The position numbers were made by a program, and so were the translations under genes. The notes below the pieces were generated by a model. The model saw only the letters and a program-made list of their open reading frames with translations. It made no database searches and was not told where the DNA came from. A stretch of DNA of 64,000 bases from Nitratiruptor sp. SB155-2 (GTDB taxonomy: Bacteria; Campylobacterota; Campylobacteria; Campylobacterales; Nitratiruptoraceae): NCBI RefSeq assembly GCF_000010325.1, contig NC_009662.1, forward strand, positions 62,001 to 126,000, read 5' to 3'. Shown here in pieces: positions 2,801 to 25,936 of the stretch. Position 1 is the stretch's first letter, and every line of letters starts with the position of its first letter.

Positions 2801-2830
2801 TTGACAATAGTATCTTTTTTTGTGTACACT
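2801..2830 (+). promoter_or_regulatory. Sigma-70-like promoter of the FadL-like gene
   Basis: TTGACA at 2801-2806, an 18-base spacer and TACACT at 2825-2830. A transcript from here would start about 2837, directly ahead of an AAGGTG ribosome site and the ATG at 2849, giving a very short leader. This also argues against the upstream in-frame start at 2801, which lies inside the promoter. Confidence 0.6.
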
Positions 2831-2848
2831 TTGCAAAAAAGGTGTACT

Positions 2849-6952: not shown

Positions 6953-6977
6953 TATAGTTACTTACTGTTAGGTAAGT
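6953..6977 (+). promoter_or_regulatory. Promoter and palindromic operator of the TetR gene
   Basis: A -10 box TATAGT at 6953-6958 is followed directly by ACTTAC-TGTTAG-GTAAGT (6960-6977), a perfect 6-bp inverted repeat with a 6-bp centre. It covers the expected transcription start, 10 bases before the start codon, the usual place for autorepression by a TetR dimer. GGAG at 6977-6980 serves as ribosome site. Confidence 0.65.
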
Positions 6978-6986
6978 GGAGTAAAT

Positions 6987-7592
6987 ATGAGTAAAAAAAT
7001 GGATCTATTGCAGATCGCTGCAAGACATTTCGCCAACTATGGATATAGTGGTGTCTCTTTGGACAAGATTGCCAAAGAGGCTGGAGTAACAAAGCCGGCA
7101 ATCTATTACCATTTCAAAAATAAGGATGAGTTGTATGAAGCGGTATTGATGTACCGTTTTGATACTCTTTTACACCATTTGGAAAAGAAAATAGCGGCTC
7201 GTATGCCGGCACAGAAACTGGTGCAATATATTGAAGGGTTTGGGGAGTATTTGCAACAAAACCCTTGCTTTGCGGCTATTTTGGCACATGAATTTGCTGA
7301 TAACGGCAAACATATGAGCGATAGTGCTGCGAAGCAACTCTCGAAAACGCTCAACATGCTTACATCCATTCTCAACGAAGGAATCGCAAAAGAAGAGTTT
7401 GCAATAGAAAACCCTATGGTAGTTCAGATGATGATCGTAAGCTCGCTTATCATGCATCAAACAACTAAAGAGCTCCGCGGTCGCGTAGCAAATTTTGTGG
7501 AAGGGTATAAGATCTTGCCTGACCCCAATATCGAGGATTTTGCAAAACTCTTAGCAAGAAAAATAGAAAAACTTATAAGGAAAGTCCCATGA
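6987..7592 (+). CDS. TetR/AcrR-family regulator of the RND pump
   Basis: A 201-residue TetR regulator. The N-terminal helix-turn-helix occupies residues 16-50 (GVSLDKIAKEAGVTKPAIYYHF), followed by the variable all-helical ligand domain. It is the first gene of a four-gene unit and overlaps the outer-membrane component by 4 bp, so it is co-translated with the pump it presumably represses. A perfect palindrome lies over its promoter. Inducing compounds are unknown. Confidence 0.9.
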   Translation: MSKKMDLLQIAARHFANYGYSGVSLDKIAKEAGVTKPAIYYHFKNKDELYEAVLMYRFDTLLHHLEKKIAARMPAQKLVQYIEGFGEYLQQNPCFAAILAHEFADNGKHMSDSAAKQLSKTLNMLTSILNEGIAKEEFAIENPMVVQMMIVSSLIMHQTTKELRGRVANFVEGYKILPDPNIEDFAKLLARKIEKLIRKVP

Positions 7593-12900: not shown

Positions 12901-13059
12901 CTTGAGAGACTAAGTCCGCTAGCAGATGTGGCAATCGGAGGGCTTTTGGTAGGAACCCTTCTAACACTTATCTATGTGCCGATGTATGCCTATGCAACTG
13001 ATCCAAGAAACAGAAAAACAAATCCGATAGAAAAAGTTGAAGAGTATATCGAAGAATAA
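9955..13059 (+). CDS. RND-family efflux pump, HAE1-like
   Basis: A 1034-residue inner-membrane transporter with the RND layout: one N-terminal helix, a large periplasmic loop, six helices, a second loop and six helices. The proton-relay pair is present in GMLVDDAVVVLENIERH, at about residues 390-406, and favours the multidrug HAE1 class over metal pumps. The N-terminal PYLLFSLIVGFFAMGIIGL and PKNLFPD motifs are typical. It completes a TetR-TolC-adaptor-pump unit; substrate not deducible. Confidence 0.93.
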   Translation: MFEYFYQRPYLLFSLIVGFFAMGIIGLKSLPKNLFPDANRPQVVVITSVPGATAEVAANTVSKPIEEEISRISLVRDVSSVNVANFSIVKAEFEYEKGLEAAAVDVANALSIARGKLPKNANPSVYTVGDFTLPVEVVALSPKNSNISLQEIRKIAESHIKPYLLANPHIGNVEVFGGYQSAINIEVDPFKAKKYGVDFDTLAKVLFALNKDIPIGFTKSKESFYTITYYGEKDNIEKLKNLHILPNVKLSDIAKVSWSYKKRTSGYLGNGKNAIALSIQRAPAGSVLDVSDAARAEIKKLQKLYPNIDFQIADTQRTLIETANENMLEALRDAIVYTLLVLLFFLGNFRAIIAAGISIPLVFFGTIAIIWLGGGELNIVIYTAIILALGMLVDDAVVVLENIERHLELNEDMQTAIVNGTKEVLGPVFAGTVGTIAIIFPLMFVGDFPEHIFRPLISTLIIALLVSYFLSITFIPRFSAVLYKNGTGKTKIEQWFEDVYKYTIGQLIGPYISVLKFSNGKWWALRRMLLTAAVVLTFVLSLKNVMPLIGKDVMPPMDTGIIKAQVAFSANETVDSAEKKLHKFLVWLHKQPWVKSSSVAFGSESGVLSLGSGNLPSEATITINAVDRFHRNKTIWQLEDEIRDKIAELPGVKKNDVFDFGATALSTIKAPLDIRIKAADYEKLPDKAKEIIDAIRNVKGLTSISQSWDKDFQEVVINIDKNRALSYGVTPYQIAMQIPLKGQVVSLAADMATMNTQFVRMYLKGKFNENIQSLKLLPIKTKFGEIPLSELAKVSYQLTPAKIERDKLLYSVDVSGYRSKRPVTHITDDANAALAKVDTTGFVVTQEGDIAQLHDSFKRMIKAIAIGVIILIMTLTAIYESVRLAIIMILVLPLSMIGAAWGMLIFHKPSCMPSMVGLLLLFGIIIKNAVLLIDFYKEYEKEGKSPFEAAIESVRVRFRPVMMTAFGTIAGMIPIALEQAVGLERLSPLADVAIGGLLVGTLLTLIYVPMYAYATDPRNRKTNPIEKVEEYIEE

Positions 13060-13068
13060 GGAGGGGAT

Positions 13069-13434
13069 ATGCAAACACCAACACCAGAGCAAGTTATGAA
13101 TATGATGAAAGATCGCTTTGGAAAGTTGCCAAAATCAATCGAAGAGGCAGCGGAAGTGGATCCAAGCTTGATAGTAGAACAAGCTATCAGTTCAAAATTA
13201 AGCATGCAAAGCGAAAAAAATGCACTTGATCCAAAAACAAGTACACTTGTATTCTTGGCAGCTGCTTTGGCCCTAGGCAATGAGGAGTGCGTAGAGCTCA
13301 ATACAAAAGCGGCCAAAAAGATGGGTGCGACCAATGAAGAGATTCTTTCAGTCATTCGTATTGTTCGCCATGCAGCTGCAAGTGGAATCGTTGGAACTGC
13401 CGAAGCGGCATTAAAAAATTTAAAAGAAGAGTGA
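13069..13434 (+). CDS. Carboxymuconolactone decarboxylase-like protein
   Basis: A 121-residue helical protein of the CMD/AhpD superfamily, recognised by the segment ALALGNEECVELNTKAAKKMGATNEEI. The CXXC of peroxidase-active AhpD is reduced to a single Cys here, so a disulfide-reductase role is not supported by what I see. It lies 9 bases behind the RND pump and ends in a good terminator, so it is the last gene of the pump operon. Confidence 0.75.
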   Translation: MQTPTPEQVMNMMKDRFGKLPKSIEEAAEVDPSLIVEQAISSKLSMQSEKNALDPKTSTLVFLAAALALGNEECVELNTKAAKKMGATNEEILSVIRIVRHAAASGIVGTAEAALKNLKEE

Positions 13435-13461: not shown

Positions 13462-14367
13462 ATGGCTCACCACCATCATCATGTGAAGGGTAAAAATCTT
13501 TTTATCACCATTATCTTAAATATCATCATTACCCTCTCTCAAATAGTTGGCGGCATTTACGCAAACTCTTTATCACTTCTGAGTGATGCTATGCATAATC
13601 TCAGTGATGTTCTTTCTTTGGTGATTGCTTGGGCTGCAAATACGATAGCCGCCAAACCCTCAACCAAAAGCTATACTTTTGGTCTAAAAAGAGCAGAGAT
13701 AATTGCGGCACTCTTTAACGCCTCACTCCTTCTTGGAATCGCTATCTTTTTAGTTATCGAAGCCTTCCACAAATTTTTTCATCCCCAAAGCGTCGATTCA
13801 CTCTGGGTTATTTGGCTAGGGGGTTTGAGTATTCTTTTAAATACTCTTAGTGTTCTGCTTGTGAAAAAAGATTCGGAAAAAAACATCAATATCAAAGCTG
13901 CCTACTTGCATCTGCTAACCGATGTTTTTACTTCAATAGCCGTTGTGGTAGGTGGACTGCTTATGCAGTTCTATCACATCTACTGGGTGGATCCGGCTGT
14001 CTCTCTTCTCATAGCTTTTTATCTCATATATGCTTCAATTGATATTGTAAAAGAGTCCATTGCCATTTTGATGGAGTTCGCGCCAAAATCTATCGATATA
14101 GAAAAGATTGCGGATGAGGTGAAAAAGATAGAAAAGGTTGAAAATATTCATCATATCCATATCTGGAGACTTGGAGAGCATGATATCTTTTTGGAAGCCC
14201 ATATCGATTTTAAAGAGAATCTTCCTTTACAAGAGGTGACGCAAATCATTGCAGATATCGAAAAACTTTTACGTGAAAAATTTTACATATCGCATGTCAC
14301 ACTGCAGCCCGAGTTTCAAAGAGATGATGATAAATCGATAGTAGTACAAAGGGATCCAGGTGCCTGA
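13462..14367 (+). CDS. Cation diffusion facilitator (CDF) metal exporter
   Basis: A 301-residue CDF/ZitB-type transporter with six membrane helices and a C-terminal cytoplasmic metal-binding domain. The conserved HxxxD metal sites are visible in SLLSDAMHNLSDVLSL (helix 2) and AAYLHLLTDVFTS (helix 5). The protein begins MAHHHHHVKGK, a natural His cluster usual in zinc exporters. Predicted function is Zn2+ (or Co2+/Cd2+) efflux driven by protons. Its stop overlaps the next gene's GTG start by 8 bp, making it the head of the long plus-strand run. Confidence 0.9.
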   Translation: MAHHHHHVKGKNLFITIILNIIITLSQIVGGIYANSLSLLSDAMHNLSDVLSLVIAWAANTIAAKPSTKSYTFGLKRAEIIAALFNASLLLGIAIFLVIEAFHKFFHPQSVDSLWVIWLGGLSILLNTLSVLLVKKDSEKNINIKAAYLHLLTDVFTSIAVVVGGLLMQFYHIYWVDPAVSLLIAFYLIYASIDIVKESIAILMEFAPKSIDIEKIADEVKKIEKVENIHHIHIWRLGEHDIFLEAHIDFKENLPLQEVTQIIADIEKLLREKFYISHVTLQPEFQRDDDKSIVVQRDPGA

Positions 14368-15061
14368 GTGGATAGATACATTTATAGCTTCCCATTCGGC
14401 ATTGGCTTTTTTGGCTTCTTTTGTTGCAGGAAGTCTTACTGCAGCTGCCCCTTGCTCTTTGGTATCCGTACCACTGCTTGTAGGGAGTGCAATTGCCCTC
14501 AATAAAGATCTGAAAGGCCGCAAAAAAATATTGTTCACCTATGCATTTTCTGTACTTTTTGCTTTGGGAGTAGTGGTGAGCTTTTCTATTTTGGCTTTTT
14601 TGGTAGCGAAGTTTGGTCTCTTTTTCTCTATCGCTCCTATGTGGGCATATCTGATTGCTGCAGTTGTTAGCATCATGGTTGGACTCTACGCTTGGGGCGT
14701 TTTTAGCGAAATCAATAAATCTGTACTCATAGAGAAGTTTATTCGCTTTCGGCTTTTTGGAGGTTTTTTGATAGGCATCGTGTTTGGGCTTGTCAGTACT
14801 CCTTGTGCCTCCGCTCCACTTGTTGCGATTATAAGCGCTGCTGCAAACAGCCACTATATCTATGCCTACATGCTGGTTTTAACCTTTGCTTTTGGTCACT
14901 CTTTGCTTCTGCTGATAGCAGGAGTTTCTGTCGGATTTGCCCAACAGCTTATCTCAAACAAAACGGTAGCCAGACTTTCCAATGCTCTCAACAAAAGTTT
15001 TGCTCTCGTTTTGGTGGGGTTTGGTTTTTACTTTTTTTACAGAGCGTTAGAGCAGATATGA
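14360..15061 (+). CDS. CcdA/DsbD-like membrane thiol-electron transporter
   Basis: A 233-residue protein with six membrane helices. The two cysteines expected of CcdA/DsbD-beta proteins are placed in TAAAPCSLVSVPLLVG (helix 1) and VSTPCASAPLVA (helix 4), each next to Pro as in the family. Such proteins move electrons from cytoplasmic thioredoxin to periplasmic thiol proteins, and the next gene encodes a secreted thioredoxin-like protein. The GTG at 14360 overlaps the CDF stop. Role in cytochrome c maturation or in sulfur handling is inferred. Confidence 0.82.
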   Translation: MPEWIDTFIASHSALAFLASFVAGSLTAAAPCSLVSVPLLVGSAIALNKDLKGRKKILFTYAFSVLFALGVVVSFSILAFLVAKFGLFFSIAPMWAYLIAAVVSIMVGLYAWGVFSEINKSVLIEKFIRFRLFGGFLIGIVFGLVSTPCASAPLVAIISAAANSHYIYAYMLVLTFAFGHSLLLLIAGVSVGFAQQLISNKTVARLSNALNKSFALVLVGFGFYFFYRALEQI

Positions 15062-15071
15062 AAGGAAAAAG

Positions 15072-15437
15072 ATGAAAAGATTATTGTTAGCTGCTGTGTT
15101 TGGCTTGTCTCTTTTTGCAGAGGCAAAAATGCTGCCTTCCACTCCATTTGCAGCGATTCAAGAAGCGATCGCTTCAGGGAAACGGGTATTTGTAGAAGTT
15201 GGATCAGATCACTGTTTTAGTTGTCAAAAGATGGGAAGAGTGCTCTATAAAATAAAACAGGAGTATCCCGATTCCCAGATATTTTTCTTAAATATCGAAA
15301 AGAACAGAGATGCAGCAAACCGGTTAAAAATCGTGCTTATTCCAACACAGATTCTGTATGAAAACAAAAAAGAGGTCTACCGTTATATCGGTTTGCTTTC
15401 AAAAGATGAAATTGTACATCTACTAAAAGGAAGATGA
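15072..15437 (+). CDS. Periplasmic thioredoxin-like protein
   Basis: A 121-residue protein with a signal peptide (MKRLLLAAVFGLSLFAEA) and a thioredoxin fold whose active site is CFSC in GSDHCFSCQKMG (about residues 51-54); the cis-Pro loop is IVLIPTQ. It is probably the reduced partner of the CcdA-like membrane protein encoded just upstream, equivalent to DsbD-gamma or a CcmG-like protein. Its stop overlaps the first rhodanese start. Confidence 0.85.
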   Translation: MKRLLLAAVFGLSLFAEAKMLPSTPFAAIQEAIASGKRVFVEVGSDHCFSCQKMGRVLYKIKQEYPDSQIFFLNIEKNRDAANRLKIVLIPTQILYENKKEVYRYIGLLSKDEIVHLLKGR

Positions 15438-15823
15438 TGGAGTTTGATGCATATTTGAAACGTTTCGATTACGAGGAGCGAAAGGCTATGAAGATAGGGC
15501 TCGATGAGATGTTCGAGCTTTTACAAAAAGATGAGGCACAGGTTGTGGATATCAGATTTCATGAAGAGTACGAAGCGTGGCATGTGGGATTTGGGTTGCA
15601 TATTCCACTCAATGAACTGCCAGATAGATTGAATGAGCTTGATAGAAGCAAAACGATCATTACCATGTGTCCTCATTACGATAGGGCAGAGATTGCAAGA
15701 CTCTATCTGACACTTAAAGGTTTTCATGCAAGATATTTGACCGATGGGATGCTGAAAGTGGTGGATTTTCTAAGAGGCGATAAAGCAAGAGATATGATGG
15801 AAAAAATCAGAGGAGGTAAGTGA
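15437..15823 (+). CDS. Rhodanese-domain protein 1
   Basis: A cytoplasmic single-domain rhodanese of about 128 residues (no signal peptide). The predicted persulfide cysteine lies in TIITMCPHYDRAEIARLYL, with CPHYDR forming the active-site loop, and DIRFHEEYEAWHVGF is the substrate-side motif. Rhodaneses carry sulfane sulfur as a cysteine persulfide. The second ATG at 15437 is preferred because AAGGA sits 5 bases upstream; an ATG one codon earlier is possible. It is adjacent to a second, divergent rhodanese. Confidence 0.85.
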   Translation: MEFDAYLKRFDYEERKAMKIGLDEMFELLQKDEAQVVDIRFHEEYEAWHVGFGLHIPLNELPDRLNELDRSKTIITMCPHYDRAEIARLYLTLKGFHARYLTDGMLKVVDFLRGDKARDMMEKIRGGK

Positions 15824-16182
15824 TGGAGTTTATCAAAAAAGTGGTTCCCAGTGAGATGAAAAATATACGAATCTCGGTGGAGGAGTTTATCGAGCTCTAT
15901 AACAAGGGTGAAGCAGAGCTTGTGGATATCAGGATGCCTTTTGAAACAGCTGTATGGCAAGTCAATTTTGGATTGAAAATCCCGGCACCACAGCTGCCAG
16001 AAAGAGCCCATGAGCTTCCGAAAGAGAAGCTCATCGTTGTTGCCTGTCCGAAAACAGATAGAGCAAATATGGCAAGAGTATGGCTGACAGAGCAAGGGTT
16101 TGATGCAAGATATCTTGATGGAGGTTTGTTGAATCTCATGGATTGCCTTCGGGGTGGAAAAGCCAAGGATATAAAGCTGTAA
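15823..16182 (+). CDS. Rhodanese-domain protein 2
   Basis: A 119-residue rhodanese with the active-site loop CPKTDR in IVVACPKTDRANMARVWL and the upstream motif DIRMPFETAVWQVNF. It is clearly related to the preceding gene: both start MEF, share VDIR-(M/F)-P/H-E and end with an LRGGKA/LRGDKA element, which indicates tandem duplication followed by divergence. ATG at 15823 overlaps the previous stop (TGATG). A TauE-type exporter starts 1 base after its stop. Confidence 0.85.
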   Translation: MEFIKKVVPSEMKNIRISVEEFIELYNKGEAELVDIRMPFETAVWQVNFGLKIPAPQLPERAHELPKEKLIVVACPKTDRANMARVWLTEQGFDARYLDGGLLNLMDCLRGGKAKDIKL

Positions 16183-16183
16183 G

Positions 16184-16936
16184 ATGAGTGCCGATATTAT
16201 CCATTACGCAATATACTTTTTCTTAACATTGGTTCTTTCCACCCTCTTTGCCATGGGTGGAGTTGGAAGTGCCATCGCTCTTGTACCGCTATTTTCAATG
16301 ATGGGTATGCCTATCAATTTAGCAAAAGCGATTGGGCTTTTTATCAACTCGGCATCTACCATCACAGCTTCTGTTATGAACTTTTTTAGAGGAGTGCTGG
16401 ATATCAAATTTGCCCTTCCGCTCATTATCTCTATAATGGTTGCTACGCCTATTGGAGCTTGGAGCAGCCAATATGTCCAAAAAGAGATCATTGAGTGGAT
16501 GTTGGTTGCATTTTTATTGATAAGTTCCACTCTTTTGCTCTTTAGCAACAAAAAACCAAAAGTTGTGTATGACAAAGTTTGGGTGTTGTATGTAATAGGT
16601 GGCAGTGTGGGGATTGTTTCAGGTATGATTGGCGTTGGCGGGGGTTCCCTTATTATGCCGCTACTTATTTTACTAGGGTTCGATGCAAAAAAAGCGGCTT
16701 ATGCGATAAGTTTTGTTATTCCTTTTTCGACTCTGGGAGCCTTTTTTACCTATCTTGGCTTCGTTCATATGGATTGGATACTCCTTGGAGTTGTTACAGT
16801 CGCAGCAATCATTGGAGGATATCTTGGGGATTTTATTATGCATTACCGTTTAACCCCAAATCAGATAAAAAAGCTTATTGCGGTCGTTCTTCTTTTACTG
16901 GCTTTAAAAATGGTTTATCAATTACTAGGAGCGTAA
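16184..16936 (+). CDS. TauE/SafE-family sulfur-compound membrane transporter
   Basis: A 250-residue membrane protein with about eight helices in two related halves. The family's duplicated motif is seen as AMGGVGSAIALVPLFSMMG in the first half and GMIGVGGGSLIMPLLILLG in the second. TauE/SafE proteins move sulfite, sulfoacetate, thiosulfate or related anions. Its place directly after two rhodaneses makes an inorganic sulfur substrate likely, but this is inference. Confidence 0.88.
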   Translation: MSADIIHYAIYFFLTLVLSTLFAMGGVGSAIALVPLFSMMGMPINLAKAIGLFINSASTITASVMNFFRGVLDIKFALPLIISIMVATPIGAWSSQYVQKEIIEWMLVAFLLISSTLLLFSNKKPKVVYDKVWVLYVIGGSVGIVSGMIGVGGGSLIMPLLILLGFDAKKAAYAISFVIPFSTLGAFFTYLGFVHMDWILLGVVTVAAIIGGYLGDFIMHYRLTPNQIKKLIAVVLLLLALKMVYQLLGA

Positions 16937-16937
16937 G

Positions 16938-17183
16938 ATGCTACATATTTTAAAAAAAATTGCAGACTGGATTATAGAGCATGAAAAGAGTGCGGCACTT
17001 GATTGCAGTGTACCCGATGAGATTATCGATGAGTGGCTTGAGACGATTGAAGAGCGAAAACAAGAGATGGAAGAGGAGGGCCACACCGATTCTGAACAGT
17101 ATGAGATGCTTTTAGATCTTGAAAAAAGAGTCAAAGAGATCAAAGAGATGAGGAAAAAGAGGTGCCTTATAAAGAAAAAATAA
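16938..17183 (+). CDS. Small acidic unknown protein
   Basis: An 81-residue charged protein, unrecognised. It has a short N-terminal amphipathic helix (LHILKKIADWIIEHEKS) and then a Glu/Lys-rich predicted coiled coil up to the C-terminus. The gene starts 1 base after the TauE stop and is followed 10 bases later by a small membrane-protein gene, so it belongs to the same transcript. Coding status is supported by this tight spacing and biased composition only. Confidence 0.6.
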   Translation: MLHILKKIADWIIEHEKSAALDCSVPDEIIDEWLETIEERKQEMEEEGHTDSEQYEMLLDLEKRVKEIKEMRKKRCLIKKK

Positions 17184-17193
17184 AGGGTTTTTT

Positions 17194-17430
17194 ATGAAGC
17201 CAAAAAGAAGAGTATTTGGAAAGAGTAAAGAAAACAACCAAAACCTTCACTCAAGAGGGATAGCCGCACTTTTTGCAGCTTTTGGCGCTGTGGCATTTTG
17301 GCGAGGAAGCTGGATGCTTATGGATAGGTATCTTTTTCCAAATAACGATCTATTAAGTGCTGTTGTGAGCATTGTAGGCGGAATTGCGATAATTTTGTTT
17401 TTAAACTATAAATTTGAGGATCTCTTTTGA
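17194..17430 (+). CDS. Small two-helix membrane protein, unknown
   Basis: A 78-residue protein with a basic N-terminus (MKPKRRVFGKSKEN) and two predicted membrane helices (about 24-45 and 53-72). Unrecognised. Its stop overlaps the ClC start by 4 bp, so it is translationally coupled to the channel and could be an accessory subunit; that is only a contextual guess. Confidence 0.6.
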   Translation: MKPKRRVFGKSKENNQNLHSRGIAALFAAFGAVAFWRGSWMLMDRYLFPNNDLLSAVVSIVGGIAIILFLNYKFEDLF

Positions 17431-18697
17431 GCCTATCTATTGATATATCAAAACTAAAATGTATCGGTTATGCCACATTTATCGGTATTGTTATGGGCGT
17501 TTTGATAGCGTTGATGATAAAGCTTCTTTTTTTCATGATAGATCTCTCAAAGGATCTACCGTTTGAGAGTTTTTATCTTGCACCTATCATTTTGCCGCTC
17601 GTTTGGTATCTCAATAGATGGCTTTCAAAAAAAGAGATCGTTTTTCAAGAAGATGAGATCAAAGAGATATATGATTATATAGAATTGAACAAAGATGAAA
17701 AACCGCACTATCTACATTATGTTTTTGCGAAAATTTTTCTTTTTTTTGCGACAGTTTTCGTCGGTGGTTCCGTGGGTCCAGAAAGACAGGGGATTCAACT
17801 GGGAGCCGGGATGTGCCAGTTCTTTGCAAAAGTTTTTTCTTGCAAAGGATTTGATAGAAGAAGTCTGGTTGTAGCGGGCATCGCTGCGGCTTTTTCTGTT
17901 ATTCTTGGAGCACCGATAGCTGCACCTGTTATTGCGATAGAGCTGATGGCGGTGCATATCGTGGTTTATGAGACGCTTCTAGCTGCTACGATAGCAAGTT
18001 TTTTCGCATTTTTAAGTGCGAAGTTTTTGCATATCGATTATCACTATTTTGAGCCTTTGCCACACTTTTTCCCCCAGTATGAATGGTCGCTCTTTTTGCC
18101 CGTTATTCTTGCCGGTCTTTTTTTTGCCTTGCTCTCTTTTGTGATTGTTCGATTTTTTAGAGTGTTATCTTTTTTCAATGTGGCTACTGCAGTCCATCCT
18201 GTTTTGAAAGCAGTTTTTGTAGGTTCTTTTATTATGTTGCTTGGGAGCTACGGATTGACATCTCCTCTTGGGCTTGGAGTCGATGAGATAGAGTCTACAT
18301 TCAAAGCTACAGAGAATGTGGCATGGTATCTGCCGTTACTCAAAATTGTAGCGACTGCTTTTACCTTGGAGTTTGGAGGAGAAGGGGGAGTGTTTACTCC
18401 ACTTTTATATGTTGGCAGCATGAGTGGACACTGGTTCGGCCAGTTCATTGGAGGAAATGCTCCTTTTTTTGCCGCTTTGGGATTTGTCTCTGTTATAGCT
18501 GCAACGATGAGAATACCTGTATCCTCTGCCATACTCGCAGCTGAACTTTTTGGCGTAAAAAGGCCCATTTTGCCTTCATTACCATTTTGATAGCCTATAT
18601 TGTCAACAAAAACCATACCCTTTTTGAAGCGCAAGGAGAAGCGATCAAAAAGTCCGATGCGTTGATAGCTGAGATGAAAAGATTTTTAAAGATGTAA
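17427..18697 (+). CDS. ClC-type chloride channel/antiporter, frameshifted near the C-terminus
   Basis: A ClC-family protein with the glutamate-gate region GSVGPERQGIQLGAG (about residue 115) and the second anion motif GGEGGVFTPLLYVGS (about residue 315). As written the frame stops at 18590 (387 residues), but the frame one base back continues from 18563 to TAA at 18697 and encodes a hydrophobic segment AHFAFITILIAYIVNKNHT and a charged tail, matching the last ClC helix. One extra A in the A5 run at 18557-18561 restores a single 424-residue protein. Residues flanking the gate (Pro-Glu-Arg-Gln) differ from the classical Arg-Glu-Gly-Pro, so ion selectivity is uncertain. Confidence 0.8.
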
Positions 18698-18717: not shown

Positions 18718-19764
18718 ATGCCAGATCCAAGATTTTTAAAGCCGTGGCACGGAATACCAAGAGAGGAGATAGACTGGCATCCAACAGTGGATCATGACAA
18801 ATGTATAGGGTGCGCAACATGTGTGACAGGTTGTAACAGGCTCGTGTATAGATACGATTTCGAAAATGAAAAATCGATCGTTTATGATCCGTTAAACTGT
18901 CTTGTAGGATGTACCACTTGCCACAATACTTGCCCGGTGGATGCCATATCCTTTCCGCCATTTGATGTGGTTTTCGATCTGGAGAAAAGAGTGGATGAGC
19001 ATCACGCTGTTGAAGATGATCTTTTTACAAGAAGAGATATTTTGGAATACAAAGAGGCAGAGCCTGCGCCAAAAGAGCAGGCAAAAGTGATGTATAAAGA
19101 GATAAGAGGTGATGTTACAATCCTAAGATGTGATCTTGAAAATTTGCAAAATATACGAGCCGGACGCTATATGGAGCTTGAAATTCCAGGCAAAAACTGG
19201 CTTGGAAGAAGTTATTCCGTTGCGAATGTTCCTTTCAATGACGGATATGTAGAGTTTCACATCAAAAGAGTTCCGGGAGGAAGATTTAGCGAATATGCCT
19301 ACAACGATTTACAAATAGAAGATACCTTCACCGCAAAAGGCCCTTACGGGAAATTTGTATACGATTCGCAAAACAGACTCTATTTCGTAGCTCTTGGTGT
19401 TGGACTTGCACCGCTTGTGGGAATGATAAGAGAGGTACTGTTGCACGATCCACAGAGGGATATCAAACTTTTTTGGGGAGTGAACCGATCAAAAGATTTT
19501 TACTATCTCGATGAGATTAACGAGCTTGCCCAAACATATAAAAATTTTAAACCTGTTTTGGTAGCAAAAGAGTATGATGTGGCATTCAAACTGCCAAAAC
19601 ATGGGCAGTTTTTCAAAAAAAGAGCACTGGAAGCTTTCATAGAAGAGATTTTTGATACCGATAGGGACTACTATATAGCGGGACCTTTTGGAGCATTGAA
19701 TACGTTTAAAAAGGTACTTGTGAAAAACGGAGTGGATGAGAGCAAGATATTTACAGAGATATAA
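18718..19764 (+). CDS. Ferredoxin-domain/FNR-type flavoprotein reductase
   Basis: A 348-residue fusion. The first 90 residues hold two [4Fe-4S] clusters (CIGCATCVTGC at about 29-39 and CLVGCTTCHNTCP at about 61-73). From about residue 125 follows an FAD/NAD(P)-binding module: RSYSVANVP (flavin), GPYGKFV, then ALGVGLAPLVGMI (nucleotide-binding) and YYIAGPFGAL. It is soluble, so it should pass electrons between NAD(P)H and a ferredoxin-like or membrane acceptor. It stands between a ClC gene and a split membrane permease; partner unknown. Confidence 0.82.
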   Translation: MPDPRFLKPWHGIPREEIDWHPTVDHDKCIGCATCVTGCNRLVYRYDFENEKSIVYDPLNCLVGCTTCHNTCPVDAISFPPFDVVFDLEKRVDEHHAVEDDLFTRRDILEYKEAEPAPKEQAKVMYKEIRGDVTILRCDLENLQNIRAGRYMELEIPGKNWLGRSYSVANVPFNDGYVEFHIKRVPGGRFSEYAYNDLQIEDTFTAKGPYGKFVYDSQNRLYFVALGVGLAPLVGMIREVLLHDPQRDIKLFWGVNRSKDFYYLDEINELAQTYKNFKPVLVAKEYDVAFKLPKHGQFFKKRALEAFIEEIFDTDRDYYIAGPFGALNTFKKVLVKNGVDESKIFTEI

Positions 19765-19767
19765 AAA

Positions 19768-20181
19768 ATGATAGAGACACTTTATACATCTTTGAAAAGC
19801 TTTTTCAAGATAACTCCAATGCTCTTAGGCGTTATCGGAATTGTCGGTATTTTCAAAGTTTTTATAACCCCCGATCTGCTTGCATCTTTTTTTACCAAAA
19901 ACCCTTTTTATGATACGTTTATAGGCCTTTTTGCCGGAGCGATTGCCGTTGGCCAAGCGATTGTGAGCTATCTTCTGGGTGGAGAGCTTTTAAGAAGCGG
20001 TGTCTCGCTTTATGGGGTGACAGCGTTTATTTTGGCTTGGGTTACCCTCGGAATCGTACAGTTGCCACTGGAAGCCAGCGTATTGGGTATTCGGTTCACT
20101 GTTTTAAGAAATGTTTTGGCTTTGATTTTTACCTTTTTGGTCACTCTCGCTACTGTCTGGACGCTGGAGCTTTTGGGATGA
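19768..20181 (+). CDS. Split permease (YraQ/UPF0718-like), first half
   Basis: A 137-residue membrane protein with four hydrophobic segments. GLFAGAIAVGQAIVSYLLGGELLRSGVSL and the following TLGIVQLPLEA resemble one half of YraQ/ArsP-like permeases (PF03773), which normally have two such halves in one chain of about 300 residues. The next gene overlaps by 4 bp and encodes a similar second half, so the two probably assemble as one permease. Substrate unknown. The family assignment is by motif resemblance only. Confidence 0.65.
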   Translation: MIETLYTSLKSFFKITPMLLGVIGIVGIFKVFITPDLLASFFTKNPFYDTFIGLFAGAIAVGQAIVSYLLGGELLRSGVSLYGVTAFILAWVTLGIVQLPLEASVLGIRFTVLRNVLALIFTFLVTLATVWTLELLG

Positions 20182-20657
20182 GAGGGAAATGGTTTTTACT
20201 GGCTGTAATTGCAATCTATATTGCTCTTTTTTTCTTGTACCCCCAAAAAGTCACTTTGGCTTTAGAGGAGTCTTTTCATCTTTTGATCAAAATCGCGCCT
20301 ATTTTAGCCCTCGTCGTTTTAATCAATGCGCTTATAAATTTTTTTATAGACCCGAAAACATTGGCAAAACATCTAAGCCGCGAGAGTGGAAAAAAGGCTT
20401 GGATTATCGCACTTCTGGCTGGAGTTTTGAGTCACGGCCCTATGTATGCGTGGTATCCTTTGATAGAGGATTTAAAGAAAAAGGGTCTTCGAGATTCGCT
20501 TATAGCCCTCTTTTTTTATGCAAGGGCTGTAAAACTGCCACTGCTGCCTTTGATGGTACACTATTTTGGGCTAAAATTTACTATAGTTGTCAATATCTAT
20601 ATCGTCGTAGCGGCATTATTGCAAGGGATAATAGTTGAAAAAATTGAAAATAGCTGA
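20178..20657 (+). CDS. Split permease (YraQ/UPF0718-like), second half
   Basis: A 159-residue membrane protein with four or five helices. The segment GVLSHGPMYAWYPLIEDLKKKG followed by FYARAVKLPLLPLM matches the conserved core of YraQ-type permeases. The ATG at 20178 overlaps the upstream stop (ATGA); an open frame extends further upstream inside the first half but lacks a reason for earlier start. It overlaps the K+ channel's TTG start by 23 bp. Confidence 0.65.
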   Translation: MRGKWFLLAVIAIYIALFFLYPQKVTLALEESFHLLIKIAPILALVVLINALINFFIDPKTLAKHLSRESGKKAWIIALLAGVLSHGPMYAWYPLIEDLKKKGLRDSLIALFFYARAVKLPLLPLMVHYFGLKFTIVVNIYIVVAALLQGIIVEKIENS

Positions 20658-21738
20658 TTTTAGCTTAGCCACGCTCTATATTCTTGTATATGTACTTTTC
20701 TTATTTTTGGCCTCCTTGTTCATGGAGTATATCGAGCCAAATAACTTTCAAAATTTTTTTGATAGTTTTTGGTGGTCCATTGTTACAGCAACGACCGTTG
20801 GGTATGGAGATATAGTCCCTCATACTTTTGTGGGAAAAATTATCGCTCTTTTGATCATAATTGGCGGTGTAATTGCAGTGGCAGTTTTTACAGCGACCAT
20901 GACAAGCAAACTGGTAGCCATGAGTATCTTTTCAAAAAAGGATTATGAGATGTTAGACTCCTTGAACAAGCACCTTGTTATTTGTGGATTCAAAACACCC
21001 AGAATTGAGGTGCTAAGAAGTTTTCAAGCCCATTATGGTGACAATATCGTCATCATATATCCAGAACTTGTTCCAGAACTCAAAAAGATCTTGGAGGAGT
21101 ACAATCTCAAATGGGCACAAGGCGAATACAATGATGAAGCTGTTTTGAAAGAAGCCCATATAGAAAGGGCGGATAAAGTGATGATTTTGAATTTGCATGA
21201 TGAGTTTGCAGACGCAAGGGTACTGGAAACTGTCATAGTGATTCGCTCATTGAATCCCCATGTCTATATTACAGCAGAAATCATCGATCCAAAGTATGAA
21301 AACTACCTTATCAAAAGTAAATGCAACGAGATTATCATGAGCGAAGAGTACAACAGGTTTTTGCTTTCAAAATCTGTCACAGAGCCTGGTATGTCCAAGG
21401 TTATCCGGAAGCTTCTTAGAACGCAAAATATCCATATCCAAACGAAACACTCCTATGTAGGAATCTCTTATAAAGCGGCTTTTGAGGAGAGTTTGCAAAA
21501 AGGGGAGATACTCATAGGCATCGTAAAAAACTATATAACGGAGAGTGAACTGAAAAAGATTGTTTTAAAAAAGCTGCAGTTTGGAGGTGATGTGGAAAAG
21601 TATAAAAAGCTTCTCACAAAAATCAAAAGAAACGAAGTTGAGATGGAAGTGGTCATCAATCCGGATGATGATATGATCATTCCAGAATTTGCTGCTTTGA
21701 TAGTTATGGAGAGGAAACATGGAAAATCCGATATTTGA
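20635..21738 (+). CDS. Potassium channel with RCK/TrkA domains
   Basis: A 367-residue two-helix channel. The selectivity filter TVGYGD is at residues 54-59 between helices at about 12-30 and 70-92. From residue 105 a TrkA-N-like RCK domain follows (HLVICGFKTPR, AHIERADKVMILNLHDE), and residues 265-367 form a TrkA-C-like tail. The start is TTG at 20635, because no ATG lies before the first helix. It probably sets membrane potential or K+ flux in response to a ligand bound by the RCK domain. The next gene overlaps by 20 bp. Confidence 0.85.
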   Translation: MKKLKIADFSLATLYILVYVLFLFLASLFMEYIEPNNFQNFFDSFWWSIVTATTVGYGDIVPHTFVGKIIALLIIIGGVIAVAVFTATMTSKLVAMSIFSKKDYEMLDSLNKHLVICGFKTPRIEVLRSFQAHYGDNIVIIYPELVPELKKILEEYNLKWAQGEYNDEAVLKEAHIERADKVMILNLHDEFADARVLETVIVIRSLNPHVYITAEIIDPKYENYLIKSKCNEIIMSEEYNRFLLSKSVTEPGMSKVIRKLLRTQNIHIQTKHSYVGISYKAAFEESLQKGEILIGIVKNYITESELKKIVLKKLQFGGDVEKYKKLLTKIKRNEVEMEVVINPDDDMIIPEFAALIVMERKHGKSDI

Positions 21739-22165
21739 AGGTTTGAACGAAGAGGAAAAGAGAAGTTTTTTGTCTCTTTTTACAAAAAAAGAGGTGCAAA
21801 AAGGTGATGTGATAAAACAAGAGGGGGATCGCTTAAAAAAGGGTTTCTTTTTAGAAAACGGAAGGCTTGTTGTAAAAAAACATTCTTCTGAAGGAGAGAT
21901 AGAGGTCGCTACTATCAGTGACAGCAGTCTCTTTTTCTCTCTTACTTGCCTTGTTGATGGAGGGAAAAGTTTAACGACGGTAGAAGCTCAAGAAAACTCC
22001 ACTATCTTAGAGATTTCGCAAAAGGAGTTTTTTGCTTTTTGTCAAAAAAATCCAGCAACTGGCGTAAAAATTCTAAAAAACATAACCTTGCTTCTTGCAA
22101 AATATCTAAGAAAAAGCGATGAAAAAATTGTCCAAATGTATAAAACTTTAGAAGAGGTGCTGTGA
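21719..22165 (+). CDS. Stand-alone cyclic-nucleotide-binding domain protein
   Basis: A 148-residue protein made of one CNB/cupin domain (residues 8-130, with the beta-roll segment GDVIKQEGDRLKKGFFLENGRLVV) and a final helix. There is no helix-turn-helix, so it is not a Crp-type DNA binder. The phosphate-binding Arg/Glu motif of true cAMP sites is not obvious, so the ligand is unknown. It overlaps the K+ channel gene and is coupled (TGATG) to the globin-sensor gene; it may supply the regulatory domain that other channels carry in cis. Confidence 0.75.
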   Translation: MENPIFEGLNEEEKRSFLSLFTKKEVQKGDVIKQEGDRLKKGFFLENGRLVVKKHSSEGEIEVATISDSSLFFSLTCLVDGGKSLTTVEAQENSTILEISQKEFFAFCQKNPATGVKILKNITLLLAKYLRKSDEKIVQMYKTLEEVL

Positions 22166-23259
22166 TGAATGCAAAAATTGAACTGGTAAAAGAGATCTAC
22201 CAACTGCAAGACAATGATCTGCAAGAAAGAAAAAAAGCATTAAAGAAAATAGAACCCTATGTAGATGAGATAATGGATCAGTTTTATAAGAGGCTTTTGC
22301 AAAAAGAGGATTTTGCCAAATTTATTTCTGTAGAGAGAATTCCAGAACTCAAAAGAAAACAGATCAAGTTTCTTGTCCAGCTTCTTTCAGAGCCTTTTGA
22401 TGAAAAACTCTATAAAAGAATCGCAAAAGTGGCTATTGTACACTACCATATACAACTAGATCCCATCTATATGTCCTATGGATACCATATTTTAAGTGAA
22501 CTTATATTGGCGCAATCACAAAAAGATCCCTCTATTTTGCCCTATCTGAAACTGATTATCAAATATTTGAAAGTTTCAGAGGAGATTATGAAAGAGGAGT
22601 ATTTTGCACAAAAAATGCTTGCCGAGTCTCCATATAGGGCGAACGATCTCTTTATCGCGGTCAATAGCCTTCATATGGCATATATCCGATGCAAAAGCTC
22701 CTTTGAGAATTTGAGGGTGGATGAAAAAGCAAAAGAGCTTTTTGAAAAGAGCTTGGAGGAGTTAAAAGAGTACAAAGATGTCTTGGAAGAGGCCGGATTT
22801 CATCTTGCAACCATTAAACGATTTTGTACACAGTTTTCCAATGAACCAAATGAGAAGAATTTAGAGGCGTTGAAAAATGCCATTGTAAAGCCTTTGAATA
22901 ACGTCAACGTTACCGCCTATCTCTCTTTGACAAGCTCCCTTGCCACCATGCGTGCGATGACAGATATCGTCTATAAAAGAACTATTGTAAATGAAAAAGA
23001 GTTAACAATAAAGAGCGTACAGCACAAAATATTTACACTGTTCAGTGAAAATTACGGCTGGGCAATATCGGATATAGAGTTTTTAGACAAGGAGCCCGAA
23101 TCCGGATACGAGATAGTGAAGTATATGGCTTTTCGTGAAAAGATATTTTTCCTCTGTATCAATGTCAGAGATGTTATCAACAAGTTATATGTTGTTGAAG
23201 GAATCGATCTTTTGGCTGAAGCCATGAAGCTGACACTCTATAACAGAAGCAAGGAGTAG
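22165..23259 (+). CDS. Globin-coupled sensor (protoglobin domain) with unknown output
   Basis: A 364-residue cytoplasmic protein. Residues 1-155 match the protoglobin/globin-sensor fold; the proximal-heme signature reads HYHIQLDPIYMSYGY, in register with the family pattern HxxIxLxPxWY. Residues 160-364 are helical then mixed alpha/beta and match no output domain that I recognise; it is not a methyl-acceptor, kinase or GGDEF domain. It likely binds heme and senses O2, NO or CO. ATG at 22165 overlaps the CNB stop (TGATG). The small unknown gene and feoAB follow. Confidence 0.75.
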   Translation: MNAKIELVKEIYQLQDNDLQERKKALKKIEPYVDEIMDQFYKRLLQKEDFAKFISVERIPELKRKQIKFLVQLLSEPFDEKLYKRIAKVAIVHYHIQLDPIYMSYGYHILSELILAQSQKDPSILPYLKLIIKYLKVSEEIMKEEYFAQKMLAESPYRANDLFIAVNSLHMAYIRCKSSFENLRVDEKAKELFEKSLEELKEYKDVLEEAGFHLATIKRFCTQFSNEPNEKNLEALKNAIVKPLNNVNVTAYLSLTSSLATMRAMTDIVYKRTIVNEKELTIKSVQHKIFTLFSENYGWAISDIEFLDKEPESGYEIVKYMAFREKIFFLCINVRDVINKLYVVEGIDLLAEAMKLTLYNRSKE

Positions 23260-23260
23260 G

Positions 23261-23581
23261 ATGAGTTTAGAATATTGTTATCCTCTTAAAGAGGGCGAAA
23301 TACTTCATGAAGAGCATGATGAGTGGCCTTTGTTTGATGTAACGATCCATGGAAGTGATACGGAGCGGGTGAAACTGGCCAAAAGGCTTGTCTGTTCTGT
23401 CAAACATATGCCGCTTCGATTGAGAATTCACTATGAAAAGGATGCAGTAAAATCGATCGAAAAGGGTGTGGGGAAAGATCCAACGTTAGAGTGTCAAGGC
23501 AAAATCTTGGCTGAGGGGCTTGTGAGTGCAGAGGAACTGACACAGATTTTTGAAAGGCTTTTGGAACAAAACAATGAGTAG
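23261..23581 (+). CDS. Small unknown protein preceding FeoA, thioredoxin-like in its C-terminus
   Basis: A 106-residue cytoplasmic protein. The second half (DPTLECQGKILAEGLVSAEELTQIF) resembles the last strand-helix unit of thioredoxin-like proteins, but no CXXC is present; Cys residues occur singly (YCYP, LVCSV, LECQ). I cannot name a family. It begins 1 base after the globin-sensor stop and overlaps feoA, which ties it to iron uptake. Confidence 0.6.
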   Translation: MSLEYCYPLKEGEILHEEHDEWPLFDVTIHGSDTERVKLAKRLVCSVKHMPLRLRIHYEKDAVKSIEKGVGKDPTLECQGKILAEGLVSAEELTQIFERLLEQNNE

Positions 23582-23828
23582 AAGGCTCCTGTCTCAGATG
23601 AAACCAAAAGAGCGAGGGATCATCAAAAAAATCGGCGATATTGGTGAGCTGAAACGACGGCTTTTAGAACTTGGTGCGCTTACAAAGGTTCCTATAGAGG
23701 TGGTTCGGATAGCTCCTTTTGGTGATCCCATCGAGATAAAAATAGGCAATACCTATTTGGCGCTGCGTAAAAGCGAAGCAAACAAAATTGAGGTGGAACT
23801 TTTTAAGGATAAAGCATGTTCACCGTAG
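23574..23828 (+). CDS. feoA: Ferrous iron transport protein A
   Basis: An 84-residue SH3-like FeoA protein: LSQMKPKERGIIKKIG, then LKRRLLELGALTKVPIEVVRIAPFGDPIEIKIG and an ALRKSEANKIEVE ending, the standard FeoA core. It assists the FeoB GTPase-permease. ATG at 23574 is chosen since it overlaps the previous stop and begins the domain; the longer frame from 23550 has no support. It overlaps feoB by 13 bp. Confidence 0.92.
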   Translation: MSRRLLSQMKPKERGIIKKIGDIGELKRRLLELGALTKVPIEVVRIAPFGDPIEIKIGNTYLALRKSEANKIEVELFKDKACSP

Positions 23829-25936
23829 CATTTGTCGGCAATCCCAATGTAGGTAAAACGGCACTCATCAACGATATTGCCGGAAGCGATCTACAAGTAG
23901 GTAACTGGCCTGGGGTGACGGTAGAGAAAAAAGAGGTGACATTTACCTATCACGATGAGAAGATCCATCTTGTTGATCTTCCAGGGACCTATACTCTCAC
24001 ACCATATTCACTGGAAGAGAAGATTACAAGAAATGTTATCTGCTCCGAACAGATTGATGGCATTATCAATGTTGTGGATGTTACGGATATCAGACGTAAC
24101 ATGTATTTGACATTAGAACTCGTTGATCTGCAAAAGCCTTTGGTTGTAGCGCTGAATATGTTCGACGAATTTACCAAAAGAGGGTATGCGCTTGATATTG
24201 AGAGATTAGAGGCAATCTTGGGTGCCCCTTGTGTACCCACGATAGGATCCAAGGGAATAGGGACGAAGAGGCTTGTTAAAGAGATGTATGACGCAATCAA
24301 AGAGGAAAGAAAACCAAAAGTCATTCCTTATCAAGAGCATATTGAAAAAGAGATAGCCTTTTTGATCAAAAAGATGGAGAGGGAAGATTGCCAGTTAAAA
24401 AGATTTTTTGCCATAAAGCTTTTAGAAGAAGATGAATTTGCCACTAAGAGAGTAGAGCAGATGGACCCTTCTATCGTGCAGGCAGCCAAGGAGGCAAGAG
24501 AGCGGTTGCAACGACATTTTGGCATGAGTGTCAAAGAGTTCATCGTACAAGACAGATATCAAAAAATAGACAAGATTTTAGATGAGGTGCTCAAAAAACC
24601 GTTGATTGATAGAGTCCTTTTGAGTGATAAAATCGACAATTTCGCACTGCATCAATGGTTTGGCATTCCTCTTTTTGTAGTGATTATGTTTTTGATGTTT
24701 AAGATAACCTTCGATGGCAGTGCTCCGATAGTGGATTGGATGAGTGGATTTTTCGAAAACTTTTTAGGGCCTCATCTAAGAGCTTCCATGCATCCCTTGC
24801 CGCCTTGGATGGTTTCGCTGCTTGTAGATGGAGTTCTGAGTGGCGTGGGGCTGGTTCTTTCTTTTTTACCCCTTTTAGCCTTTTTATACTTTTTCATGGC
24901 TCTTTTGGAAGAGAGCGGCTATATGGCAAGAGTGAGCTTTTTGCTTGATAGGTTGGCTGCTGGGCTTGGAGTGAAGGGAAATGCCTTTATATCTTTGATT
25001 GTCGGATTTGGCTGCAATGTACCGGCAGTCTATTCTACAAGAACTTTAAGTTCGCTTCGAGAGCGCATAATCGTGACATTGATGATTCCGTTTATGAGCT
25101 GCAGTGCGAGATTGCCTATCTATGCCCTTTTTACCGCACTCTTTTTTAGGCATCATCAGGCTTTGATCATTTTATCGATGTACCTGTTGGGAATTATTGT
25201 TGCATTGGCGATTGGATTTTTGGCGAACAAGCTTTTGCCAATGCAAGATTCAAAACCTTTTTTTCTAGAACTCCCTACCTATCATATGCCGACGTTCCAT
25301 GCAATATGGCGGTCGATGAAACCAAGACTTGCCGATTTTATTACGCGAGCCGGTACCGTGATTGTCGCAGCTTCCATAGTTGTATGGGCCATTATGAGCC
25401 TGCCTCCTTCATCCACTCCTCAAACATCCTATTTGGCAAGAACTGCTCAAAAGATTGCTCCCCTTTTTAAGCCTCTTGGTTTTGGTGAGCATTGGGAGCC
25501 TGTAGCGGCACTCATTCCTGGGACTTTAGCCAAAGAGGTGGTGATAGGCTCTCTTGGAACTATTTATGGTGTGGAAAATGCGAAAAAAAAGGTAGCTAAA
25601 ACTTCATGGCTCGATGATCTTTGGGATCAAGTAAAAGCGTTGGGAAGAGCGTTAAAAGATTCGATACTCAATATAACAACCCTGCAGATTGCTTCCCTGC
25701 AAAGTGAGCAAACCTCAAGCCTGCTGATGCAAAAACTGCGTAGTCAGATTGCCACACCAGCTGCTGCACTATCCTATATGATTTTTGTTTTGCTCTATAT
25801 TCCATGTGTCTCAACAATGGCGGCCATCAAAGAAGAGTTTGGCTGGAAACTTATGGTGTTTGAAGTGCTGTTTTTGCCGGTTTTAGCCTATTTTATTACC
25901 TTTTTTCTCTACTCGGTAGTAAAATATTTTCTTTAG
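23816..25936 (+). CDS. feoB: Ferrous iron transporter FeoB
   Basis: A 706-residue FeoB. The N-terminal G domain shows G1 GNPNVGKTALIN (7-18), switch region GNWPGVTVEKKE, G3 DLPGTYTL and G4 NMFDE; a helical GDI domain follows, then two gate regions with conserved Cys in GFGCNVPA and SCSARLPIY. FeoB imports Fe2+ through the inner membrane and is the main iron route in microaerobes. It closes the long plus-strand run and converges with nosD, overlapping by 4 bp. Confidence 0.95.
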   Translation: MFTVAFVGNPNVGKTALINDIAGSDLQVGNWPGVTVEKKEVTFTYHDEKIHLVDLPGTYTLTPYSLEEKITRNVICSEQIDGIINVVDVTDIRRNMYLTLELVDLQKPLVVALNMFDEFTKRGYALDIERLEAILGAPCVPTIGSKGIGTKRLVKEMYDAIKEERKPKVIPYQEHIEKEIAFLIKKMEREDCQLKRFFAIKLLEEDEFATKRVEQMDPSIVQAAKEARERLQRHFGMSVKEFIVQDRYQKIDKILDEVLKKPLIDRVLLSDKIDNFALHQWFGIPLFVVIMFLMFKITFDGSAPIVDWMSGFFENFLGPHLRASMHPLPPWMVSLLVDGVLSGVGLVLSFLPLLAFLYFFMALLEESGYMARVSFLLDRLAAGLGVKGNAFISLIVGFGCNVPAVYSTRTLSSLRERIIVTLMIPFMSCSARLPIYALFTALFFRHHQALIILSMYLLGIIVALAIGFLANKLLPMQDSKPFFLELPTYHMPTFHAIWRSMKPRLADFITRAGTVIVAASIVVWAIMSLPPSSTPQTSYLARTAQKIAPLFKPLGFGEHWEPVAALIPGTLAKEVVIGSLGTIYGVENAKKKVAKTSWLDDLWDQVKALGRALKDSILNITTLQIASLQSEQTSSLLMQKLRSQIATPAAALSYMIFVLLYIPCVSTMAAIKEEFGWKLMVFEVLFLPVLAYFITFFLYSVVKYFL

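Follow-up and report, generated by a model that had tools for sequence, protein, structure and literature searches.

A rhodanese-type sulfurtransferase adjoins a TauE-family sulfite exporter in the cst operon. A second relevant system, ArsEFG, is said to serve organoarsenical resistance, reportedly from work by Chen in 2019. Campylobacterota of hydrothermal vents live with high loads of both sulfur and metals. A precedent for a sulfite-making sulfurtransferase beside a TauE-related exporter is also given by the bigR operon (PMC5823870). The locus compared with these systems here is a block of five genes in the hot-vent bacterium Nitratiruptor sp. SB155-2, at 14360-16936 on the + strand of a stretch of 64,000 nucleotides (the window; contig NC_009662.1, positions 62,001 to 126,000). 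It encodes a CcdA-type membrane protein, a secreted thioredoxin, two rhodaneses (R1 and R2) and a TauE-family exporter. In the best explanation, which has about an even chance of being right, R1, R2 and TauE form a module for sulfane sulfur and sulfite within a metal(loid)-stress operon that is headed by tetR.

Spacing across the five genes is -4 to +10 nt throughout, so their coupling is well supported. The initial annotation of this DNA had proposed that coupling and had named all five products rightly, as the Pfam scores in Table 1 bear out. The genes are there, but its block is not a unit: its boundaries cut through a longer + strand run that begins with tetR (6987), ends with feoB (25936) and has 23 genes, the block being its middle part. 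Intergenic gaps in this run are at most 27 nt, with a single exception of 127 nt after the ClC gene. The MEF starts that R1 and R2 share, once taken as a sign of duplication, are coincidental, because they fall in different columns of the alignment (A1) and other R1 and R2 proteins start otherwise. Two diverged copies do exist, but the duplication is old, with R1 and R2 forming two clades across 59 rows of a tree, parted by a 100/100 branch. A recent tandem duplication was rejected on account of these old, separate clades.

Conservation of the block was surveyed in 199 genomes of the order, with a search for each of four proteins and a fifth search for R2. For co-occurrence counts the chosen E cut-offs were 1e-45 (CcdA), 1e-17 (thioredoxin) and 1e-28 (TauE); the R1 set is the 37 best rows of the R1 search, and R2-type genes are the remaining rows of the R1 and R2 searches, down to about 1e-14. 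The TauE count omits two second fragments of genes already counted (G147, G003), and the hypergeometric P values of the counts ignore kinship. TauE lies within 5 kb of 35 of the 42 R2-type genes, always on the same strand and in 23 cases within 100 bp. CcdA occurs in 22 genomes and the secreted thioredoxin in 21, with both in 20; thioredoxin is found on the same strand within 1 kb of 19/22 CcdA genes, and 19 of the 21 thioredoxin copies are so placed. Within 5 kb of the 37 R1 genes are TauE (19), R2 (18) and CcdA (13), and CcdA is within that distance of only 5/42 R2-type genes. From these counts R2-TauE and CcdA-thioredoxin are each a firm pair, and their union is looser. A putative rhodanese-TauE sulfur module conserved in position and strand is supported.

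Gene neighborhoods (8 kb on either side, same strand) were then compared for 63 rhodanese-bearing loci, 21 with R1 only, 17 with R2 only and 25 with both. Ten of them (L137-L146) could duplicate, at the species level, members of the G set (L141 seems to be the same contig as L118), and dropping them leaves 53 loci; R1 is also identical in L097 and L098, and the source genomes of L160 and L162 have the same R1 scores. TauE accompanies 24 of the 25 R1+R2 loci, along with a CDF exporter (17), an RND permease (17) and CcdA (8). R2-only loci have TauE (13/17) and RND (11/17), and neither ars genes nor CcdA (0/17 each). The TetR-TolC-HlyD-RND-AhpD-CDF run recurs in one genome of the same family (L163, G018:C1:650405-650551), where TauE is intact and is closely preceded by an R2 remnant with several stops. 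Near R1-R2-TauE, 8/25 R1+R2 loci also encode a CT0912-like protein whose N-terminus is twin-arginine-like (e.g., L098:5733-6728). A plasmid-borne module was rejected: plasmid records (27 and 11) hold only remote rhodaneses, below 60% identity.

R1 occurs in two settings. R1-only loci (n = 21) are rich in arsenic-resistance genes, with ArsC in 17, ArsP in 15 and ArsE in 13, and TauE in only 3. After the ten contigs named above are dropped, ArsC is present in 17/19 R1-only versus 1/34 R2-bearing loci (Fisher P 9e-11, kinship ignored). Among ars genes, R1 is usually flanked directly by ArsP and ArsE. The two settings also differ at the N-terminus of R1. Signals were called from hydrophobicity (a 12-residue window above 1.8) rather than with SignalP, and a strongly hydrophobic N-terminus was detected in 18 of 47 R1 proteins, each of these having two or more ars families inside 8 kb. 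Among the remaining 29, which lack a signal, 27 have TauE nearby, the exceptions being L103, whose R1 adjoins R2, and L137, which lies where a contig ends. R1 copies beside R2 or TauE, including that of the window, have no signal-like N-terminus. One R2 (L172) also exceeds this threshold, probably because its start is misplaced, and was left out of the secreted set. These features predict that one rhodanese lineage is used in the periplasm in ars operons and in the cytoplasm beside TauE, and this predicted two-compartment use is the notable new element of the analysis. With midpoint rooting, TauE-linked R1 nest inside ars-linked R1, which hints that cytoplasmic R1 may have derived from the secreted form. 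A link between rhodaneses and arsenic is not wholly new, since in Thioalkalivibrio a rhodanese-related gene occurs in an As(III)-induced operon adjoining ars genes (PMC6620896). In two same-genus genomes (L097, L098) the run with R1 also holds, just upstream of it, a gene for a chromate transporter (PF02417; 245 bits for the L097 copy, L097:10136-11338).

The active loop of the rhodaneses is well preserved: C-x4-R is retained in 60/60 aligned rows. Of the 19 PDB matches to the R1/R2 profile, which include the rhodanese domains of CoA-persulfide reductase and GlpE, none has the name of a phosphatase or an arsenate reductase. A candidate partner is c16, encoded near the end of the run, which is fused to R1 in one relative's locus and to R2 in another (L103, L125). 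Its AlphaFold2 (AF2) model has a pLDDT of 85.4, its best Foldseek match is 1ilo (MTH895; E 3.8e-4), and a profile comparison with ArsE gives 59.2% probability. In a single locus, a gene for a thiosulfate-dehydrogenase-like cytochrome is inserted between R1 and R2 (L107:8262-9134; PDB 4wqc, E 8.2e-33). In another relative an FmdE-like gene occupies that position.

The setting of the block, which the initial annotation missed, is one of probable metal resistance. Taken as a whole, the run resembles an operon for metal efflux of the TetR/RND/CDF kind. Five genes separate a FadL-like gene (2801-3955; Pfam 18.2 bits, below cut-off) from tetR, and five genes likewise lie between NIS_RS00350 (long-chain fatty acid transport) and NIS_RS00380 (TetR/AcrR) in Table 1 of PMC10092412. 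Because gene order agrees, tetR of the run is taken to be NIS_RS00380; counted on from there, the genes from CDF to s81 would be NIS_RS00405 to NIS_RS00435. NIS_RS00380 was induced by Cd (log2 fold change 1.06) and Cu (1.07), and the abstract of the same paper reports CdS particles for SB155-2 (PMC10092412). The palindrome upstream of tetR matches perfectly; shuffles give 1.47 matches on average when 2 mismatches are allowed. Relatives have similar palindromes upstream of tetR, although single palindromes are not significant: 16/19 upstream stretches pair at least 7/8 arm bases, a level often reached by shuffles, and the window scores 6 in that test. The genome's own ars operon is elsewhere (G000:C1, about 28.7-31.9 kb), with the order ArsR-ArsC-ArsE-ArsP-ArsB and neither rhodanese nor CcdA; the order given for NIS_RS00160 to 00140 agrees (PMC10092412). 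None of ArsR, ArsC and ArsB adjoins the block in the window.

Co-occurrence, the two settings of R1 and the conserved loop together lead to a reading in which R1-R2-TauE is a cytoplasmic unit and CcdA-thioredoxin a periplasmic cassette shared with ars operons. It is plausible that the unit moves sulfane sulfur and disposes of sulfite, in an operon that is probably metal-responsive. Substrates, transport direction, sulfur acceptor and benefit can be inferred as follows. Metals such as Cd(II) or Cu(II) would relieve TetR repression, and RND and CDF efflux would be raised together with the block. In the cytoplasm, the catalytic cysteine of R1 and R2 would take up the sulfane sulfur of thiosulfate or polysulfide and hand it to thiols, perhaps c16. 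The resulting persulfide or sulfide might bind or precipitate thiophilic metals, and sulfite left over from thiosulfate could be exported via TauE. CcdA and the secreted thioredoxin would act separately, keeping periplasmic thiols reduced under metal stress. In the ars operons of relatives, secreted R1 would carry out its sulfur-transfer step in the periplasm. The single sulfane-sulfur circuit of the initial annotation, plausible on sulfur, is in this respect too simple: its rhodanese-TauE part is a conserved module, but CcdA and thioredoxin appear to be a separate cassette in another compartment.

Several observations weigh against this explanation. The R1 and R2 searches match (E ≤ 0.001) in 73 and 71 of the 199 genomes, so the module, as judged by homology, is missing from most of the order. 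TauE is a family of broad substrate range, and 38 of its 71 relatives have neither R1 nor R2 within 5 kb. Two later-fetched R2-type open reading frames (L168:9122, L175:9381) lack the CP-x3-R motif. In 8 loci, which all belong to a single family (f16), a same-strand MoaC gene is found close to R2-TauE. The RND pump is, by its profile scores, not clearly a metal pump, with 482.1 bits as a drug pump against 284.7 as a CusA/CzcA metal pump, all below cut-off. Induction of tetR is small, and none of the genes with NIS_RS004xx tags is mentioned in the main text of PMC10092412.

A further reading goes beyond the even-chance explanation and is rather doubtful. It holds that the rhodanese lineage is an unrecognized component of metal(loid) resistance, in which the secreted form between ArsP and ArsE would thiolate arsenicals or metals in the periplasm, and the unsecreted form with R2, c16 and TauE would supply persulfide sulfur in the cytoplasm and dispose of sulfite. 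If the lineage does act on both sides, sulfur transfer would be a resistance mechanism itself (thioarsenical or metal-sulfide formation) and not just housekeeping. More generally, the setting suggests that these bacteria rely in part on sulfur chemistry in coping with toxic metals; if rhodaneses and TauE belong to the metal-resistance gear, sulfur transfer becomes part of metal and arsenic tolerance. The contrast between R1 with a signal-like N-terminus, in ars operons, and R1 without one, beside TauE, is clean and amounts to a natural experiment on moving an enzyme across the membrane.

Other explanations have to be weighed against the module in a metal-stress operon. The five genes could form one trans-membrane sulfane-sulfur line, with CcdA and thioredoxin feeding electrons to the rhodaneses and TauE exporting the sulfur product. 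Their coupling in the window would fit, as would the presence of R1 or R2 within 15 kb of 15/22 CcdA genes, the 4 bp between secreted thioredoxin and signal-bearing R1 in L109, and a weak similarity of relatives' CcdA and thioredoxin to TsoB, an NCBIfam rhodanese/DsbD fusion selenoprotein (listed in PMC13188914). However, in the window the thioredoxin has a signal peptide and R1 and R2 have none, so they are predicted in a different compartment from it, and CcdA, as noted, is missing around R2-only loci; such a line is unlikely.

The next three explanations are less probable again. A detoxification of sulfide like that of cst or bigR, in which rhodanese and persulfide dioxygenase make sulfite for export by TauE, gains from the bigR operon, in which Blh, a sulfurtransferase-dioxygenase, is paired with a sulfite transporter related to TauE (PMC5823870). 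The dioxygenase was not found among the two scanned of the genome's 5 metallo-beta-lactamase matches (the other three were not scanned): one is GloB-like (23.3 bits for Blh against a cut-off of 625) and the other SoxH-related. The run shows no CsoR/BigR-type regulator either, its head regulator being TetR. Membership in cst/bigR was rejected for want of a dioxygenase in those two, and the explanation as a whole is quite improbable.

An equally slim chance attaches to R1 (or R2) as a rhodanese-fold arsenate reductase, or as an accessory of ArsEFG-kind organoarsenical resistance. In plants, the HAC1 arsenate reductases resemble rhodaneses and have a CX4R site (PMC9454679), and R1 and R2 carry such a loop; the match is weak because the loop is common to sulfurtransferases. 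The place of R1 between ArsP and ArsE in many ars operons also favors this role, as does the weak similarity of ars-type CcdA to ArsG (24 to 31 bits, cut-off 200). However, 17/19 R1-only loci already have a thioredoxin-type ArsC, ars-linked R1 is seemingly secreted whereas ArsC works in the cytoplasm, and ars genes are absent around R2-only loci. A phosphatase-arsenate reductase of the Cdc25/ACR2 kind was rejected, as it needs an HC-x5-R loop (PMC9454679) and R1 and R2 carry C-x4-R.

CcdA-thioredoxin could instead be SoxV/SoxW, reactivating Sox sulfur oxidation that the rhodaneses feed. SB155-2 does have sox genes (PMC10092412, Table 2), and in Sulfurovum indicum two adjacent rhodanese genes are raised about 2.8-fold on elemental sulfur (PMC10045233). 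Those genes were not matched to R1/R2, positions of SoxH and rhodanese in 5 genomes did not fit, the scanned genes of the run gave no Sox family match, and CcdA-thioredoxin lies among ars genes in many relatives, all of which leaves little probability for this role. Service of R2-TauE in molybdenum-cofactor sulfur transfer or molybdate/tungstate handling is very improbable: a tie to molybdenum, which the initial annotation had said would count against it, is seen in part, in the 8 MoaC loci of a single family, and neither the R1-only ars loci nor the run of the window yielded MoaC.

Table 1. Features of the co-directional run in the window
Feature	Position	Strand	Basis and remarks
Palindrome ACTTAC-N6-GTAAGT	6960..6977	+	Directly 5' of tetR; possible autoregulatory operator
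TetR/AcrR regulator	6987..7592	+	Pfam TetR_N 62.4 bits; heads the run; NIS_RS00380 by gene order
TolC-like outer-membrane protein	7589-8860	+	Pfam OEP 110.1 bits
HlyD-like protein	8857-9951	+	Pfam HlyD_D23 36.3 bits
RND permease	9955-13059	+	Pfam ACR_tran 569.2 bits
AhpD/CMD-family protein	13069..13434	+	Pfam CMD 45.4 bits
CDF metal exporter, His-rich N-terminus	13462..14367	+	Pfam Cation_efflux 178.4 bits
CcdA/DsbD-type membrane electron carrier	14360..15061	+	DsbD_TM (PF02683) 37.8 bits, cut-off 27.1
Secreted thioredoxin	15072..15437	+	Thioredoxin 42.8 bits; signal-peptide-like N-terminus; CFSC active site
R1, single-domain rhodanese, no signal peptide	15434..15823	+	Rhodanese (PF00581) 42.6 bits, cut-off 22.2; loop CPHYDRA
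R2, single-domain rhodanese, no signal peptide	15820..16182	+	Rhodanese (PF00581) 29.6 bits, cut-off 22.2; loop CPKTDRA
TauE/SafE-family exporter	16184..16936	+	TauE (PF01925) 135.1 bits, cut-off 32.6
s81, small conserved protein, predicted three-helix bundle	16938..17183	+	AF2 pLDDT 87.1
s78, small membrane protein, 78 aa	17194..17430	+	Untrusted Pfam match to Fuseless, 39.8 bits (49 residues)
ClC channel, frame seemingly broken near 18557	17427..18590	+	Voltage_CLC 161 bits
4Fe-4S/FAD/NAD reductase	18718..19764	+	Pfam
Half-size ArsP_1-like permease gene, first	19768-20181	+	ArsP_1 22.4 bits (below cut-off)
Half-size ArsP_1-like permease gene, second	20178-20657	+	ArsP_1 37.5 bits
Potassium channel with TrkA_N domain, cNMP-binding protein, protoglobin-domain protein	20635..23259	+	Pfam
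c16, MTH895/ArsE-like thioredoxin fold without CxxC, conserved Cys6 and Cys45	23261..23581	+	Foldseek, AF2
FeoA and FeoB, last genes of the run	23574..25936	+	FeoA 76.7 bits; FeoB named from sequence

The other genes of the run have features of their own. CcdA of the window has paired membrane cysteines, read from the sequence in AAAPC and STPC motifs. The two small genes and the ClC channel reported downstream of the block are present, although the last is apparently frameshifted near its 3' end: the expected C-terminal residues run on in another frame to about 18697, through a frameshift or a sequencing error. The match of s78 to the animal family Fuseless exceeds that family's cut-off and is probably misleading. 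The other small gene, s81, is found on the same strand within 8 kb in 18/25 R1+R2 loci, and its predicted structure has no Foldseek match in the PDB at E ≤ 0.001. Both half-size ArsP_1-like genes match the C-terminal half of the family and are present also in two same-genus genomes. Promoter and terminator scans of the DNA gave sites no more frequent than in shuffles.

Among known systems, the bigR operon resembles the run in having a sulfurtransferase beside a TauE-family sulfite exporter (PMC5823870). The run differs from cst and bigR in its lack of a persulfide dioxygenase (among the two of 5 candidates scanned) and of a CstR/BigR regulator, its TetR-RND-CDF embedding and its two separate single-domain rhodaneses. 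The rhodanese domains of GlpE and CoA-persulfide reductase are among the nearest solved domains, but R1 and R2 occur as a pair of free-standing proteins with a CPxxDR loop of their own. TsoB (NCBIfam NF045694) likewise joins a rhodanese with a DsbD-like membrane part; it is a single fused selenoprotein, whereas here the genes are separate and the rhodanese loop has Cys. ArsEFG is similar in its combination of an ArsE-type thioredoxin with a DsbD-family-like membrane protein. In contrast, CcdA of four relatives scores 24 to 31 bits against ArsG (NF040495; cut-off 200), and that of the window has no match to it at E ≤ 0.01; ArsG membership was rejected since the score is far below the cut-off. 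Known ars operons with redox genes contain the same three redox families, and the CcdA and secreted thioredoxin of relatives sit in such operons, unlike CcdA-thioredoxin of the window, which stands outside the genome's ars operon. Rhodanese is never mentioned in the comparison paper on ars-operon redox genes; to those sets the relatives described here add a signal-bearing rhodanese between ArsP and ArsE.

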